DNA from: Pyrinomonadaceae bacterium
GTDB lineage: Bacteria > Acidobacteriota > Blastocatellia > Pyrinomonadales > Pyrinomonadaceae
Length of the DNA: 64,000 bases
Direction of reading: 5' to 3'
Assembly: GCA_026129865.1 (NCBI GenBank)
Contig: JAHCHG010000004.1
Coordinates: 310,001 to 374,000, forward strand
Part shown: one piece after another, positions 6,014-15,996 of the stretch
Layout of the letters: every line of letters starts with the position of its first letter
Position numbering within the stretch: the first letter of the stretch is position 1
The notes under the pieces: model-generated
What the model saw: the letters and a program-made list of their open reading frames with translations, nothing else
Told to the model about the DNA's origin: nothing
Database searches by the model: none
Program-made: the position numbers and the translations under genes

Positions 6014-7276
6014 TTAATTTAAACATTTGCGATAATTTTGTACGGCGGACTCGAGCGAATATTTCCCCAATGCGGCATTTCTTGCATTTTGGGATTTGTC
6101 CGAAATTGTATCGCGCTCCGCATAGATCTGTTCGATCGCTGCAAGAAGATCTTCTTTATGATCGGGCGCGACCGACCACCCGACATTCTCTTCGCGAACA
6201 ACGCGGTCCAATTCGGAATCCTTTTCCGTTATCGCAAGCATCGGTTTGCCGGCTGCTAATATATTATAGGTTCGGCTCGGCATAGAAACGCCCCACATTT
6301 TTTTGACCAGAGAGACTAATGCAACGTCGCAGGCGTTTAGAAAAATGTTTTGCTCTTCGCGCGGACGCGGCGCAAGCAGCGTTACGTTCGTCAGGTTATT
6401 TTCCGAAACTTCCCGTTCGAGCCATTTCTTCTTTACGCCAGCGCCGAGAAATACAAACTGAAATCGGGGATCGTTCTTGAGCTTTTCCGCACACCAGATT
6501 ATGCTCTCGATATCGTTTGGATAACCCATGTTTCCCGCATAGAGAAATACAAATTTTTCCGTCAATTCTAGTTCTTTAAGAAGCCGATTTTCAGCACGCG
6601 GAAAGGGTTTAACGGTTTCAAGTTCAGCCCAGTTAGGGATCGTTTCGATCGGTATATCCAGTCCTTGGGTCTTTTCTCCGACAAGCTCGCGCATATCGCG
6701 TCCGACGACAATGATCTTTGCGGCGTACTTGTAAAGCCAACGGTTGCAGAAGTTTAGAAATTTAACCGAAATAGACCGCGAGTCCGCTTTTCCCGCGGCG
6801 ATCAATATTTCGGGATAGTTGTCGTGGATCAGCAAAGTGTAACTGCAGCCCTTAAAAAGCGACGCAAAGGCGGCGATGAACGGAAGACTCGGCGGTGTAG
6901 TAACGACCAGAACACGGTCGCCTTTCTTAAATTTCGTGATCGCCTTTAGAAAGATTGAAAAGCTCAAGGTGAGCATATTGATCAGGCGAAAAGCAATGAC
7001 GTTTTTGTCAAAGGTTGTGCCGAACGCACGAAAGATCGAAACTTTTTTATGAATCTCAAATTTCGGAGCGCGCGTTCCGCGGGCGGAATAGTTCGGCTGC
7101 CCGCAGATCGCCTTTACATTAAAATCATTTACTAAACCTTCGGCGATCCGGGTCAGATAATAGCCGGTCGAGGTTTCTTCCGGGTAATAAAGTTCCGTGA
7201 TAACCCAAAGCGTTTTGTTTGTTTCCGATCGATCGGCGAGCGATACGTTTGATTTAACTGGTGTGTTTTCTGACAC
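6014..7276 (-). CDS. Glycosyltransferase family 4 (WbuB/WbjE-like)
   Basis: A 420-residue GT-B glycosyltransferase. The N-terminal acceptor domain has ITELYYPEETSTGYYL and GQPNYS motifs typical of the WbuB/WbjE group, and the C-terminal domain has FLYAGNMGYPNDIE followed by the E-x7-E region (CDVALVSL, MPSRTYNILAAGKP). In the P. aeruginosa O11 locus the equivalent gene is proposed to add L-FucNAc to the lipid-linked first sugar. It begins at a GTG at 7276 that overlaps the 2-epimerase gene by 23 bases. It acts on the cytoplasmic face of the membrane. The sugar specificity is inferred from the neighbours. Confidence 0.82.
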   Translation of the reverse strand: MSENTPVKSNVSLADRSETNKTLWVITELYYPEETSTGYYLTRIAEGLVNDFNVKAICGQPNYSARGTRAPKFEIHKKVSIFRAFGTTFDKNVIAFRLINMLTLSFSIFLKAITKFKKGDRVLVVTTPPSLPFIAAFASLFKGCSYTLLIHDNYPEILIAAGKADSRSISVKFLNFCNRWLYKYAAKIIVVGRDMRELVGEKTQGLDIPIETIPNWAELETVKPFPRAENRLLKELELTEKFVFLYAGNMGYPNDIESIIWCAEKLKNDPRFQFVFLGAGVKKKWLEREVSENNLTNVTLLAPRPREEQNIFLNACDVALVSLVKKMWGVSMPSRTYNILAAGKPMLAITEKDSELDRVVREENVGWSVAPDHKEDLLAAIEQIYAERDTISDKSQNARNAALGKYSLESAVQNYRKCLN

Positions 7277-8354
7277 TTAAATAACCCAAGACAATTTTGC
7301 TGACGGTTTCGGAAACGTTGTCGATCAGATAATCTGCCGGAGCCGTCCATTTTGAACGGTTCGAAACCGCGAGTTCGGTTGACCGGACGATCATATCTTC
7401 ACTCGCACCGCTCAAGATATTGCTGCCGCATTCTATCGTTTCCGGGCGTTCCGTCACGTCGCGAAGCGTAACGTTCGGAATTCCGAAAATGGCGCATTCT
7501 TCCTGAACCGTTCCGCTATCGCTGAGAACTGCAAAAGCATTCTTTTCAAGCTTCACAAAATCGAAAAAGCCCATCGCGTCCAAAAGTTTTATTTTGTCAG
7601 GTTCGATCCTGATGTCAAAAGTTCTAATCTTTTCAGCCGTCCGCGGATGAACGCTTATTAAAACAGGTCGGTTAAATTTATCCGCGATCGCAGAAAAACC
7701 GCGAAAAATGCTTTTTAAACGTTCCGGCACATCGACATTTTCAGCACGATGGAGCGTAACAAGAAAATATCCGTTCGGTATGACTCCAAAATCGTCAAGC
7801 GAAGGACTTGAATCGATCTTGACTTCAAAATTGTCGAGAACCTCCTTGATAGGATTTCCCGTTACGAGAATTCGCTCGCGCTCGATGCCTTCATTTACCA
7901 GATTTTCCTTGCTCCGCTGCGTATAAGGCAGCAGGATCGTGCTGGAATGATCGATGATCCGCCGATTTACTTCCTCCGGAACGCGATTGTCGTAGCAGCG
8001 GTTTCCCGCTTCCATATGATAAACCGGAATTCCCCGCCGGGCGGCAATTATCGCAGAAAGCGCGCTGTTCGTATCGCCGAGAATGAGAATGCGGTCCGGC
8101 TTGTGTTCTTCCAAGATCTCATCGGTCCGCGATAGGATCTGCCCAACCTGGCTCCCAAAGTTCTTCGCACGTATGCCGAAATGAACGTCCGGCGTTCGAA
8201 CTTCCAGATCCCTGATAAAAATATCGCTTAGACTTTCATCGTAATTTTGCCCGGTATGCACCGTGATCTGTTCGCAATGATCATCCAGCTTTTTCATGAT
8301 CAGGCTCAAACGAATAATTTCCGGTCGAGTCCCGAAGATCGTCATTATCTTCAT
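7254..8354 (-). CDS. UDP-N-acetyl-sugar 2-epimerase (WecB family, WbjD/FnlC-like)
   Basis: A 366-residue non-hydrolysing 2-epimerase. Family motifs visible: FGTRPEIIRL at the start, HTGQNYDESLSD near 34-45, GDTNSAL, then HMEAGNRCYDNRVPEEVNRR and SDSGTVQEECA. The NRCYDNRVPEE version of the motif is like FnlC/WbjD rather than plain WecB (which makes UDP-ManNAc). FnlC/WbjD makes the final epimerisation at C2 to give UDP-L-FucNAc, UDP-L-QuiNAc or a related L-sugar. It lies directly after the CapE-like and RmlD-like genes, completing a three-enzyme route from UDP-GlcNAc. Confidence 0.85.
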   Translation of the reverse strand: MKIMTIFGTRPEIIRLSLIMKKLDDHCEQITVHTGQNYDESLSDIFIRDLEVRTPDVHFGIRAKNFGSQVGQILSRTDEILEEHKPDRILILGDTNSALSAIIAARRGIPVYHMEAGNRCYDNRVPEEVNRRIIDHSSTILLPYTQRSKENLVNEGIERERILVTGNPIKEVLDNFEVKIDSSPSLDDFGVIPNGYFLVTLHRAENVDVPERLKSIFRGFSAIADKFNRPVLISVHPRTAEKIRTFDIRIEPDKIKLLDAMGFFDFVKLEKNAFAVLSDSGTVQEECAIFGIPNVTLRDVTERPETIECGSNILSGASEDMIVRSTELAVSNRSKWTAPADYLIDNVSETVSKIVLGYLSVRKHTS

Positions 8355-8356
8355 AA

Positions 8357-9403
8357 TTAATTAAGAAATCGTGCTATTTCATCGCTGGCGCCGGCAAACA
8401 ATGTTCGAAGTTCTTCGACGGAAATATTGTCATCTTTTGATGAATACTCATTTTCGAGCGTATTCTGAGCTTCCATGTCATCACGAAGTTCCGGCAAAAC
8501 CGGAAGTATTACGTAATATCCATCGCGCTCAACGGTTCGAAAACATTCTTCCTCGGAAACCATTATCTCGTGAATCTTTTCGCCCGGGCGAATTCCCGTG
8601 TAAACGATCTCAAGATCCTTGTCGCCCATCAGACATTTTGCGACATCTGTTATTCTGGCTGCGGGCACTTTCGGAATATAGGTTTCACCGCGCTTTCCGC
8701 TGCCGATCGCTGCAAAAACCGTGTCGACCGCGCGGTCGAGCGAGAGCAAAAAGCGCGTCATTTCCGGCAGAGTAACCGTCAACGGCTGGTTATTTTTAAC
8801 TTGCTCAACGAACAGCGGAACGATAGAACCGCGCGAAGCGATCACATTTCCATACCGCACGCACGTGATGTTCGTTTTCGAACAATCGCGATTTCCCTCG
8901 ATCAAAATTCGTTCCTGCAAAGCCTTTGTCATGCCCATCACATTGATCGGCTTACATGCTTTGTCGGTTGAAATTCCGACTACTCTTTCTATCGGAAGAT
9001 CGTTTTCGCGGATCGCTTTGACAACATTTTCTGCGCCGATAATGTTGGTTAAAACCGCCTCGTACGGAAAATATTCACACGACGGAACCTGTTTTAATGC
9101 AGCAGCGTGAAATACAACGTCAACATCGCGCATCGCCGATAACAAAGATGACGGGTCGCGAACGTCGCCGATACGAAAATTCAAAACGTCGAGCGAATTT
9201 TCGTAGATAACATCGTCGGTCGCCGCCGTCTTGTGAAGATATTCCAAACGCATGAAATGCTGCTTCGCTTCATCGCGCGAAAAAACCGTTATTTTTTCCG
9301 GTCGCCCCATTTCGCCGGTCAAGAGCCGGCGAACCAATGTTTTGCCGAGCGACCCCGTGCCGCCCGTAACCAATATTCGTTTTCCTTCTAAATTGTTCTT
9401 CAT
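8357..9403 (-). CDS. UDP-GlcNAc 4,6-dehydratase/5-epimerase (CapE/WbjB/WbvB-like)
   Basis: A 348-residue extended short-chain dehydrogenase. The NADP loop TGGTGSLG is at about 13-20, STDKACKPINVMGMTKA lies near 150-166. In this group methionine replaces the usual catalytic tyrosine (MxxxK, here MGMTK), the hallmark of inverting dehydratases that also epimerise C5 and so feed L-sugar pathways. The product would be UDP-2-acetamido-2,6-dideoxy-L-arabino-4-hexulose. It overlaps the upstream RmlD-like gene by 4 bases and the 2-epimerase follows after 2 bases, so the three enzymes are made together. Confidence 0.88.
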   Translation of the reverse strand: MKNNLEGKRILVTGGTGSLGKTLVRRLLTGEMGRPEKITVFSRDEAKQHFMRLEYLHKTAATDDVIYENSLDVLNFRIGDVRDPSSLLSAMRDVDVVFHAAALKQVPSCEYFPYEAVLTNIIGAENVVKAIRENDLPIERVVGISTDKACKPINVMGMTKALQERILIEGNRDCSKTNITCVRYGNVIASRGSIVPLFVEQVKNNQPLTVTLPEMTRFLLSLDRAVDTVFAAIGSGKRGETYIPKVPAARITDVAKCLMGDKDLEIVYTGIRPGEKIHEIMVSEEECFRTVERDGYYVILPVLPELRDDMEAQNTLENEYSSKDDNISVEELRTLFAGASDEIARFLN

Positions 9404-11569: not shown

Positions 11570-12547
11570 TCAACAGTCTTGGGGTTCAGTTCGATGTGCC
11601 GAGTCGATCAGTTCCGTTCTATTAATAACAGTAGTTCCTATCTGTTCGATCACGATCCCTGCTGCGATATTTGCAAGCCGGGCGGATTCTTCAAGCGTTT
11701 TGCCGGAACCCAGAGCCACCGCGACTGTTGCGATAAAAGTATCGCCTGCGCCCGTTACATCATAAACATCGCGCGGCAGCGCTTCGATATGCAGAGGCGC
11801 AACGCCATCTTGAAAGAGCGTAACGCCGTCTTCTCCTTGAGTAATCAGGATCGCGTCAGTTTCAACCTCACGTAAAAGCTGTTCACCTGCAATCTCTACA
11901 ACCCGTTGACCGTTCTCTTCCAGTTTACAAGCCTCCGCAGCCTCTTTGCGGTTAGGCGTCAGCAGCGTAGCGCCGCGATATTTTTGATAATCCTTTCCTT
12001 TCGGATCGACTAAAATTTTAATATCGTTCGTTTTACCAAAATCAATGACGAATTTCAGCAGATCGTTTGTCAGAATCCCTTTGGCATAATCGGAAATTAC
12101 GATAATATCCGCTTCCGCCAATTTTGATTCAAGGCGCTCTTGTACGATCGATTCTTCCGCCGCATTGAATTCGCCCTCGCTTTCCTGATCAAGCCGGACG
12201 ATCTGCTGACTATGCGCGACAACGCGGGTTTTTACGGTTGTCGGTCGGTCATTCAGCTTTATCAAATGATCGGCGGAAATTCCTGACTTCGCCAAGATAT
12301 CCGGAAACATCGCGCCGCCTTCGTCGTTTCCGATCGCTCCGAAGAGCATGACGCTGGCGCCGAGAGCTGAAACATTGGCAGCAACATTTGCGGCGCCGCC
12401 CGCGGTCACCGTGGTTTTATTAAGCCGTACAACCGGAACAGGTGCTTCCGGCGAGATTCGATCAACGGATCCCCACCAGTAACGATCAAGCATTACGTCG
12501 CCGAAAACCAAGACATTCAGCCGTGAAAATTCTTCGAATCCGTCCAT
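11570..12547 (-). CDS. D-glycero-beta-D-manno-heptose-7-phosphate kinase (HldE kinase domain, RfaE1)
   Basis: A 325-residue PfkB-family sugar kinase. The N-terminal FGDVMLDRYWWG and SPEAPVPVV are diagnostic for the RfaE/HldE kinase half, and DVTGAGDTFIA near residue 260 carries the catalytic aspartate. It phosphorylates heptose-7-phosphate at C1 on the way to ADP-L-glycero-D-manno-heptose, the inner-core LPS sugar. The frame is open to a GTG at 12586, but the ATG at 12547 gives the normal family N-terminus and sits 2 bases after the stop of the preceding gene. Unlike E. coli HldE, the adenylyltransferase half is not fused here but is in the upstream gene. Confidence 0.88.
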   Translation of the reverse strand: MDGFEEFSRLNVLVFGDVMLDRYWWGSVDRISPEAPVPVVRLNKTTVTAGGAANVAANVSALGASVMLFGAIGNDEGGAMFPDILAKSGISADHLIKLNDRPTTVKTRVVAHSQQIVRLDQESEGEFNAAEESIVQERLESKLAEADIIVISDYAKGILTNDLLKFVIDFGKTNDIKILVDPKGKDYQKYRGATLLTPNRKEAAEACKLEENGQRVVEIAGEQLLREVETDAILITQGEDGVTLFQDGVAPLHIEALPRDVYDVTGAGDTFIATVAVALGSGKTLEESARLANIAAGIVIEQIGTTVINRTELIDSAHRTEPQDC

Positions 12548-12549
12548 TT

Positions 12550-13569
12550 TTATTGATCGATAAATCGCTCGTCGATTATCTCGCACCAGATATGAGCAAC
12601 CGTGATATGTGCCTCCTGAATGCGCGCCGTGCGTTCGGACGGCGCCATAAATGTCAGATCACACAGCGATGCGAGTTTTTTGCCTTTTGCACCGGTCATT
12701 CCCAAAGTTTTGCAGCCGATGTCGCGTGCCGCCATTACTGCGGCGATCACATTTGGCGAATTGCCGCTTGTACTGATCGCGATCAAGAGATCGTCTTTTG
12801 CTGCGAGAGCTTCGACCTGCCGCGCAAAAACGCGCTCAAAACTATAATCATTCGCAAGTGCCGTAAGTGCTGATGTATCAGTCGTTAAAGCTATTGCAGG
12901 TAAACCTTTACGTTCACTTTCATATCGTCCCACGAATTCGGCAGCCAGATGCTGAGCATCCGCCGCGCTTCCTCCGTTTCCGCAGATCAGAAGTTTTTTT
13001 CCTGCCTTTAATGTTGAATAAATTAGATCGGCGCAATCACGAATTGACGTTTTGTGATCCTTCGCCAAGACGGAAAAAACGGAACTATGTTCATCCAGCG
13101 ACCGATCAACAGCATCGTGACCGACATCTGCCGCAGCAGACTTATTTTCAGCGGCTTCGCCAGATCGTTTTATCACGTTGACGATCGAGCTTGATGAATA
13201 CCCGTCTTTTAATGGAAGCGAATAAACTTTGCCGCCGTTTGCTTCAACAAAATCGGCTCCGATTATCTCACCCGTTTTCCAATCGCCGCCTTTTACCAAA
13301 ACGTCGGGTTTAATGTCTTTGATCAAATTCTCCGGCGTAGTTTCATCAAAAACGACCACTTCATCGACCGACGCAAGCGCAAGAAGCACGGACTTTCTGT
13401 CGTCCTGATTCATAAACGGGCGCGGCGCACCCTTTATCGAACGAACCGAACGGTCGCTGTTGATGCCAACGACGAGCCTGTCGCCCAACGCCCGCGCCCG
13501 CTCAAGCAGATCGACATGTCCAGGATGAAGCAGATCGAAGCATCCATTTGTAAAAACTGTAACCGACAT
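12550..13569 (-). CDS. Fusion of heptose-1-phosphate adenylyltransferase (RfaE2) and phosphoheptose isomerase (GmhA)
   Basis: A 339-residue two-domain protein. Residues 1-135 are a cytidylyltransferase-like domain with FTNGCFDLLHPGH (HxGH at 15-18) and GYSSSSIV, as in the RfaE2 half of HldE, which moves AMP onto heptose-1-phosphate. Residues about 160-335 are a SIS-domain isomerase with CGNGGSAADAQHLAAEF (196-212), STSGNSPNV (267-275) and RIQEAHITVAH (316-326), which has the Glu/His residues of GmhA. GmhA turns sedoheptulose-7-phosphate into heptose-7-phosphate. So one polypeptide has the first and a late step of the pathway. The start is ATG 13569 rather than the GTG at 13581. The GmhB phosphatase is not in the window. 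Confidence 0.88.
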   Translation of the reverse strand: MSVTVFTNGCFDLLHPGHVDLLERARALGDRLVVGINSDRSVRSIKGAPRPFMNQDDRKSVLLALASVDEVVVFDETTPENLIKDIKPDVLVKGGDWKTGEIIGADFVEANGGKVYSLPLKDGYSSSSIVNVIKRSGEAAENKSAAADVGHDAVDRSLDEHSSVFSVLAKDHKTSIRDCADLIYSTLKAGKKLLICGNGGSAADAQHLAAEFVGRYESERKGLPAIALTTDTSALTALANDYSFERVFARQVEALAAKDDLLIAISTSGNSPNVIAAVMAARDIGCKTLGMTGAKGKKLASLCDLTFMAPSERTARIQEAHITVAHIWCEIIDERFIDQ

Positions 13570-13716
13570 TTTATTCAGCACTTATACATTGTTTCGATAA
13601 AGACGAAAGCTTAGTAAAGCACATTCAAATCGTTGAATCAAAACTGTCTTCGATCGAAAAAACACGCCCGTCGACGACGACCGCAGGTCGTTATCGAAAT
13701 GAGCTAAAAATTTCCT

Positions 13717-14475: not shown

Positions 14476-15993
14476 TTAGATAATTCGCCGCTGACTTCCA
14501 ACCATTAACCTGATCAGCAAAATGCCAAGGATCGAAACGGCGCCGACCTTGATCATATACGGCAGGATCGAACCGTAAAAACTTTCATAAGAAACGCTGG
14601 TTAAAAGCATGTAAAACAAAACGACGCGCCAGTAAGAAAAATCCTGGTCTTCGATAAAGGTCGAATAAAGAATTCGTAGTAAAAATCCCAGCAGGATCAT
14701 CCCGATCGGAACGCCGATTGGTCCGAAATTTCGAAGCAGATCGCCCATCGGCGTGATCGTGAAAGAATTTTCGCCGTAATCAAAATAAAGATCGCCGTAT
14801 TTTCTCGGTTCGGACGCGACCGGTTTGTCCGCCCACATAACCCGTGGAATTACAAAGGTTACGGTGTCTTTGTAAATGTTGTTATCTAACCCGTAACTCT
14901 CTTCATAAGGTTTCAGCTTTTCATAATTTGCAACCACGACCGCAAGAGAACTGACGGCTTCAATTCGTTCGGCAAAGGCTGAAAAACCGCGCTCTAGCGT
15001 CACGCTAAGATCCTGTTCGGACACGCGATCGATCGTCTTTCCGACATATTCAGCGTATTGTTCCATACTGACCTGCGCTTCCGTTTGTTTGATCGAACGA
15101 AAAGTCGTCCCGTAGATCATTCCGATCAAAAGCGCCAGCGTGATAGTCACGCCTGCGTAAACGCGGTGCTGGATCTTAATGGTTCGCCCTGAAAGCACAA
15201 ACGCAAACGCGATCAAAATGAAGATCTGAAAGAGGCTCCCGCGATTTCCCTGAAACGCTGCCTTCACGAACGAGACCGATATCAAGATCGACATCACCAG
15301 GTAATGATTTACGTTCCACCTTTTAACCCGAAAAACGCAGAGCCAGAGAAGAAAACTCGCCTGGAGCCAAAATAGCGAAAGCAGAAAGATCAATCCGTCA
15401 TAGGAATTAATTTCGTCAACCTTTTGAAATCCGAGCAGACCGTTGACGAAAGCGACGATCATATTAACCAGACCAAAACCGAACAACGCCAATCCCGGCA
15501 AAAGAAGATCGCTGCTTTTCCATTTCCATTCCGGAAGCCAGGAACCGACCTTCGCCCCAACGCTTTTTCCATATGGAATGAAGAAACCGACGGCTAAAGC
15601 GGCATAGCCGATCATTACGTAAACCAGCGTCAGAGGCAGGTTATATCTTTGATCATCAATGAATGAAAGGAAATACGGTTCGGAGATTCCGCTTGCTAAC
15701 ACGAGCCCGCCGACGAAAAATGCAGGGAAAAAATAAGACCAGGCAGCGAAAACCAGCGGATGAAAAACGTTAAATTTGCCTTTGTAGTAGAGATAGAGAC
15801 TCGGCGCGGCAATGACCAAACCTGTGGCGAAAACCCACGGCATGAGGTACATTTCGCGAAATGGATTAAAGCTGTCGGTCGTCAGAACAAGAAGCGTAAA
15901 TAACCCGATAAGGACAAGCGCAAGAAGTCCGAACGCCGGAATTAACAACGCTTTATCGTGATCCATTGTAAATTTGCCGTTTCTTCTTTCCAT
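14476..15993 (-). CDS. Polytopic membrane protein, probable Wzy-type repeat-unit polymerase
   Basis: About 505 residues with roughly twelve hydrophobic segments and a large extracytoplasmic loop around residues 295-410 containing RSIKQTEAQ and the conserved-looking RVMWADKP. This topology, length and low motif content fit O-antigen/exopolysaccharide polymerases, which join lipid-linked repeats on the periplasmic face. It is the only candidate polymerase in the locus, near the Wzx-like gene. I take ATG 15993; the TTG before it and an ATG at 15966 are alternatives. Assigned by topology and context, not by a sharp motif. Confidence 0.7.
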   Translation of the reverse strand: MERRNGKFTMDHDKALLIPAFGLLALVLIGLFTLLVLTTDSFNPFREMYLMPWVFATGLVIAAPSLYLYYKGKFNVFHPLVFAAWSYFFPAFFVGGLVLASGISEPYFLSFIDDQRYNLPLTLVYVMIGYAALAVGFFIPYGKSVGAKVGSWLPEWKWKSSDLLLPGLALFGFGLVNMIVAFVNGLLGFQKVDEINSYDGLIFLLSLFWLQASFLLWLCVFRVKRWNVNHYLVMSILISVSFVKAAFQGNRGSLFQIFILIAFAFVLSGRTIKIQHRVYAGVTITLALLIGMIYGTTFRSIKQTEAQVSMEQYAEYVGKTIDRVSEQDLSVTLERGFSAFAERIEAVSSLAVVVANYEKLKPYEESYGLDNNIYKDTVTFVIPRVMWADKPVASEPRKYGDLYFDYGENSFTITPMGDLLRNFGPIGVPIGMILLGFLLRILYSTFIEDQDFSYWRVVLFYMLLTSVSYESFYGSILPYMIKVGAVSILGILLIRLMVGSQRRII

Positions 15994-15996
15994 CAA

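Follow-up and report, generated by a model that had tools for sequence, protein, structure and literature searches.

Does one gene in this Pyrinomonadaceae bacterium encode two non-consecutive, usually separate enzymes that make ADP-heptose, an activated cell-surface sugar of bacteria, or have two neighboring genes been merged by an error in the sequence? The route to ADP-heptose has five steps, carried out in turn by GmhA, a kinase, GmhB, an adenylyltransferase, and HldD (PMC10221265, a review). In the window, i.e., the whole stretch of 64,000 nucleotides that was analyzed, an earlier note had described an adenylyltransferase fused to a GmhA isomerase and followed immediately by a stand-alone kinase gene. 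We found that positions 12550-13581 of the reverse strand form one open reading frame of 343 amino acids, counted from the GTG, with zero internal stop codons, and that profile matches support both domain assignments (Table 1). The kinase was also recovered: the likely ATG of HldA lies at position 12547, 2 nt past the stop codon of the fusion.

Table 1. Coordinates of the fusion gene, its parts, and genes of the surrounding locus in the window
Feature	Position	Strand	Details
hldC-gmhA fusion gene	12550..13569	(-)	ATG start; possible GTG start at 13581
HldC/RfaE-II adenylyltransferase domain	13168..13560	(-)	aa 8-138; TNG, HPGH, NSD, KG, ETTP, KGG motifs
Variable linker	13108..13167	(-)	aa 139-158; nearby in-frame internal-start candidates weak: GTG aa 136, TTG aa 172
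GmhA-type SIS isomerase domain and stop codon	12550..13107	(-)	aa 159-343; H211, E215, Q322, H330
HldA, stand-alone heptose-7-phosphate kinase	11570..12547	(-)	TIGR02198 388.6 (cut-off 345); longer GTG frame to 12586
Oligosaccharide repeat-unit polymerase	14476..15996	(-)	TIGR04370; upstream of fusion; syntenic in most fused genomes
UDP-GlcNAc 4,6-dehydratase-like gene	8357..9403	(-)	same polysaccharide locus as fusion
WecB-type UDP-GlcNAc 2-epimerase	7254..8354	(-)	same polysaccharide locus as fusion

The N-terminal half (residues 8 to 138) scored 183.3 bits against TIGR02199, the model of RfaE domain II/HldC, and passed its cut-off of 181.5, as did nine of ten scanned relatives. A Pfam match to CTP_transf_like was also well over its cut-off. 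The nearest solved structure is 5x9q (E = 9e-31), which is labelled "putative cytidylyltransferase" and which we take to be HldC of B. pseudomallei. The substrate motifs of B. pseudomallei HldC, TNG, NSD, KG, EXTP, and KGG (PMC7993394), are all found in the fusion, at residues 11-13, 41-43, 50-51, 80-83 (as ETTP), and 97-99, respectively, and these positions are conserved in at least 36 of 37 aligned fusions. The HxGH motif is present as HPGH.

The C-terminal half (residues ~159 to 340) reached 207.8 bits over residues 184 to 336 against the GmhA model TIGR00441, 1.65 bits short of the cut-off of 209.45; the scores of ten scanned relatives ranged from 196.6 to 210.1, and one of the ten passed. 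The Pfam match to SIS_2 (PF13580) is well over its cut-off, and the nearest solved structure is the phosphoheptose isomerase GmhA of C. jejuni (1tk9, E = 1.4e-54). The zinc site of GmhA is formed by H61, E65, and H183 of one monomer and Q175 of its neighbor (N. gonorrhoeae numbering; PMC5387315). Alignment with a solved GmhA places their counterparts in the fusion at H211, E215, H330, and Q322, respectively, so that the residues on which the earlier note had made the isomerase assignment depend are present; they are conserved in at least 36 of the 37 aligned fusions. This half could instead be a DiaA-like regulator, given that DiaA belongs to the same SIS subgroup and that its model matches the half at 138.8 bits. 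That score, however, lies far below the DiaA cut-off of 352, the GmhA models score much better, every zinc/catalytic residue is kept, and the half is the sole GmhA of its genome, in which we found no second recognizable one; we regard a regulatory role as very improbable. Each half of the fusion looks like an ordinary enzyme. Two fused genomes carry an extra GmhA-like copy (G111:C107:98498-99037 and G099:C2:60716-61336); the match in G099 crosses a TAA and lies beside a 576-aa open frame.

A sequencing or assembly frameshift that merged two overlapping genes deserves consideration because other phyla often have gmhA next to hldC/hldE or overlapping with it. Both domains occur in this order and in a single frame in 57 of the 119 genomes of the source family and in 11 of its 29 genera; in several further members, a contig end cuts the fusion or a draft assembly breaks it. 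This conserved open frame excludes a local frameshift, an error whose probability is further reduced to almost nil by linker lengths that differ among the 37 aligned fusions. The fusion is therefore a real conserved gene that joins two known enzymes of one pathway, and the search for its domain order in other genomes, proposed in the earlier note, revealed a family-level trait. Full-length fusions were found in no other family among the 162 class genomes and 396 phylum genomes searched, at a limit that a fused relative should exceed by a wide margin. The best 80 loci outside the fused group, which come from many phyla, have, with one exception, a gmhA gene distinct from hldE/hldC, and the two are often neighbors or overlap; other phyla were sampled through these 80 loci, and rare same-order fusions there could be missed. 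Carriage of the fusion by phage or plasmid was rejected: no same-order fusion was seen among 80 viral-contig loci, and the plasmid matches listed hold two pieces or one half only.

The one exception (L056:5917-7017) is a frame of 367 aa in a Candidatus Methylomirabilis MAG (Methylomirabilota), seen once. It likewise encodes both domains in a single frame and has an adjoining kinase gene, directly upstream, but the opposite domain order, GmhA then HldC. It clusters with the family fusions in neither of the trees of the two halves and is apparently independent in origin. No account of an HldC-GmhA fusion was found in the literature searched, limited to open-licence papers; as far as these searches reach, the domain combination is new, its components are known enzymes, and no new chemistry is expected.

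In quick maximum-likelihood trees, a single branch separates the fused sequences from all others, for the C half (support 87) as well as for the N half (support 96), and the fusion apparently had a single origin. The fused C half has as its sister the free GmhA found in two further genera of this family (joint branch support 95), which lies near Wza/Wzc-like polysaccharide-export genes. In its tree, the N half is positioned nearer to other phyla. The AU test, however, does not reject its grouping with the HldC of the class (P = 0.46) or of the family (P = 0.37), and the N half may, but need not, have come by lateral transfer. In the three unfused relatives that were traced (G009, G028, and G033), the kinase, adenylyltransferase, and isomerase genes lie on different contigs; given this scatter, both the fusion and its clustering with HldA appear to be derived.

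Between the two domains, the linker varies from 13 to 25 residues over the counted stretch in the 37 aligned fusions. The dN/dS ratio, obtained from two close pairs only, is 0.85 for the linker, against 0.05 and 0.03 for the two domains. In this small sample of two pairs, the pattern is that of two domains under constraint, joined by an unconstrained tether. An internal start in the linker might yield a free GmhA in addition to the fusion, and two in-frame codons of the window copy, GTG at aa 136 and TTG at aa 172, do lie nearby. Nevertheless, no internal start codon is common to the linkers of the 37 fusions: the positions of ATG, GTG, and TTG differ among them, three have none at all, and a Shine-Dalgarno-like stretch occurs in few. 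We consider a second product from the same frame improbable.

The fusion is located in an O-antigen/exopolysaccharide cluster, which includes WecA-like, WecB, 4,6-dehydratase, and RmlD-like reductase genes, glycosyltransferases, the repeat-unit polymerase, Wzc/Wza-like export genes, and a flippase-like gene (a label assigned from sequence alone). In 32 of 37 loci, HldA is the gene directly after the fusion; it was not found beside the fusion in the other five (L280, L281, L282, L158, and L283). The next recognized gene in four of these five is RmlD-like, and the polymerase and RmlD-like flanks are otherwise kept in four of the five. All five genomes have a kinase match elsewhere, which is partial in G118.

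The earlier note had reported that GmhB is missing from the locus, and we found none there; the search of the rest of the genome that it suggested detected one at G000:C1:249449-249880 (PRK08942, 181.6 bits against a cut-off of 178; under the TIGR00213 cut-off), with a heptosyltransferase II gene close upstream (198 bits against a cut-off of 134.6). No HldD over the cut-off was found in the genome (best match of 132 bits against 274.6), which is about 96% complete, so that this absence is not proof. HldD passes the cut-off in only 3 of 60 relatives, a distribution which suggests that the L,D-heptose step was gained or lost patchily. The relatives with a true HldD (L277, L278, and L279) include two fused genomes, G022 and G008. 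The failure to detect HldD here and its rarity among the relatives suggest that ADP-D,D-heptose is the usual product, and it may be the end product in the source genome. The statement that the fusion joins the first and last-but-one steps consequently applies when the pathway has all five steps, HldD included, but possibly not to this bacterium, in which the adenylyltransferase may act last.

The genome has a second kinase and adenylyltransferase pair, encoded by overlapping genes at G000:C3:47.5-49.0 kb (L124:5541-7008). Most genomes across the class likewise hold two such sets, and in two relatives (L267 and L270) the second set shares a gene run with the genes for GmhB and for a homologue of heptosyltransferase II. 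The second set might therefore make the core ADP-heptose, with the N half of the fusion having drifted to another sugar-1-phosphate or nucleotide and the fusion producing another activated sugar. Against this division, it is the fused N half that exceeds the heptose-adenylyltransferase cut-off and the second-set enzyme that falls below it (169.7 bits against 181.5). The kinases compare likewise, with 388.6 bits for HldA and 275.7 for the second-set kinase against a cut-off of 345, and the fused N half retains all HldC substrate motifs. We find such a drift in substrate unlikely.

We propose that the fusion is a genuine bifunctional GmhA/HldC for heptose-containing O-antigen or exopolysaccharide and probably also for the LPS core, and we put the probability of this reading at about 0.85. 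It is no higher mainly because the second set leaves the division of labor uncertain: that pair could perform step 4, and the substrate of the N half could have shifted. The narrow miss of the C half at the TIGR00441 cut-off, which one of the ten scanned relatives passes, and the lack of an HldD match over the cut-off in the genome also weigh against it. Under the proposed scheme, the fusion would carry steps 1 and 4 of the pathway. After the isomerase step, the adjacent HldA would produce the 1,7-bisphosphate, the GmhB encoded elsewhere would remove the 7-phosphate, and the N-terminal half would adenylate heptose-1-phosphate to ADP-D,D-heptose. The sugar would then go to the polysaccharide of the surrounding locus and probably to the LPS core as well; as the only recognizable GmhA of the genome, the fusion likely supplies both.

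GmhA tetramers share active sites, to which the neighboring monomer contributes the glutamine, and the fusion is therefore most likely a GmhA-type tetramer, from which the adenylyltransferase domains would hang on flexible tethers. Because steps 1 and 4 are non-consecutive, direct channelling is not expected, and the benefit probably lies in co-expression and a fixed stoichiometry. A more elaborate arrangement, in which the fusion would be a tetrameric hub that recruits HldA and GmhB into a heptose complex dedicated to O-antigen or exopolysaccharide and physically separate from the second set, which would serve the LPS core, is conceivable but doubtful.

Among known systems, HldE (RfaE) likewise has an adenylyltransferase of the same family fused to an enzyme of the pathway. 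Its partner, however, is the kinase, whereas here GmhA is the partner and follows the adenylyltransferase in the chain, and the kinase has a gene of its own; the chain is thus not an HldE. The HldA and HldC of Burkholderia and Neisseria resemble the present case in their separate kinase and in an HldC-type domain with TNG/NSD/KG/EXTP/KGG motifs, but their HldC is free. The GmhA enzymes of C. jejuni (1tk9) and B. pseudomallei (2x3y) belong to the same SIS family and have the same zinc/catalytic H, E, Q, and H; unlike them, the fusion bears an N-terminal adenylyltransferase and a linker.

The known chemistry of the ADP-heptose pathway is unchanged by the fusion, while the pathway gains a new arrangement. 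The fusion described so far is that of kinase and adenylyltransferase; a union of the adenylyltransferase with the isomerase can now be added, and it apparently arose at least twice and in both orders. The HldC-GmhA fusion marks part of one bacterial family, and it is a candidate reagent for the one-pot synthesis of ADP-heptose.
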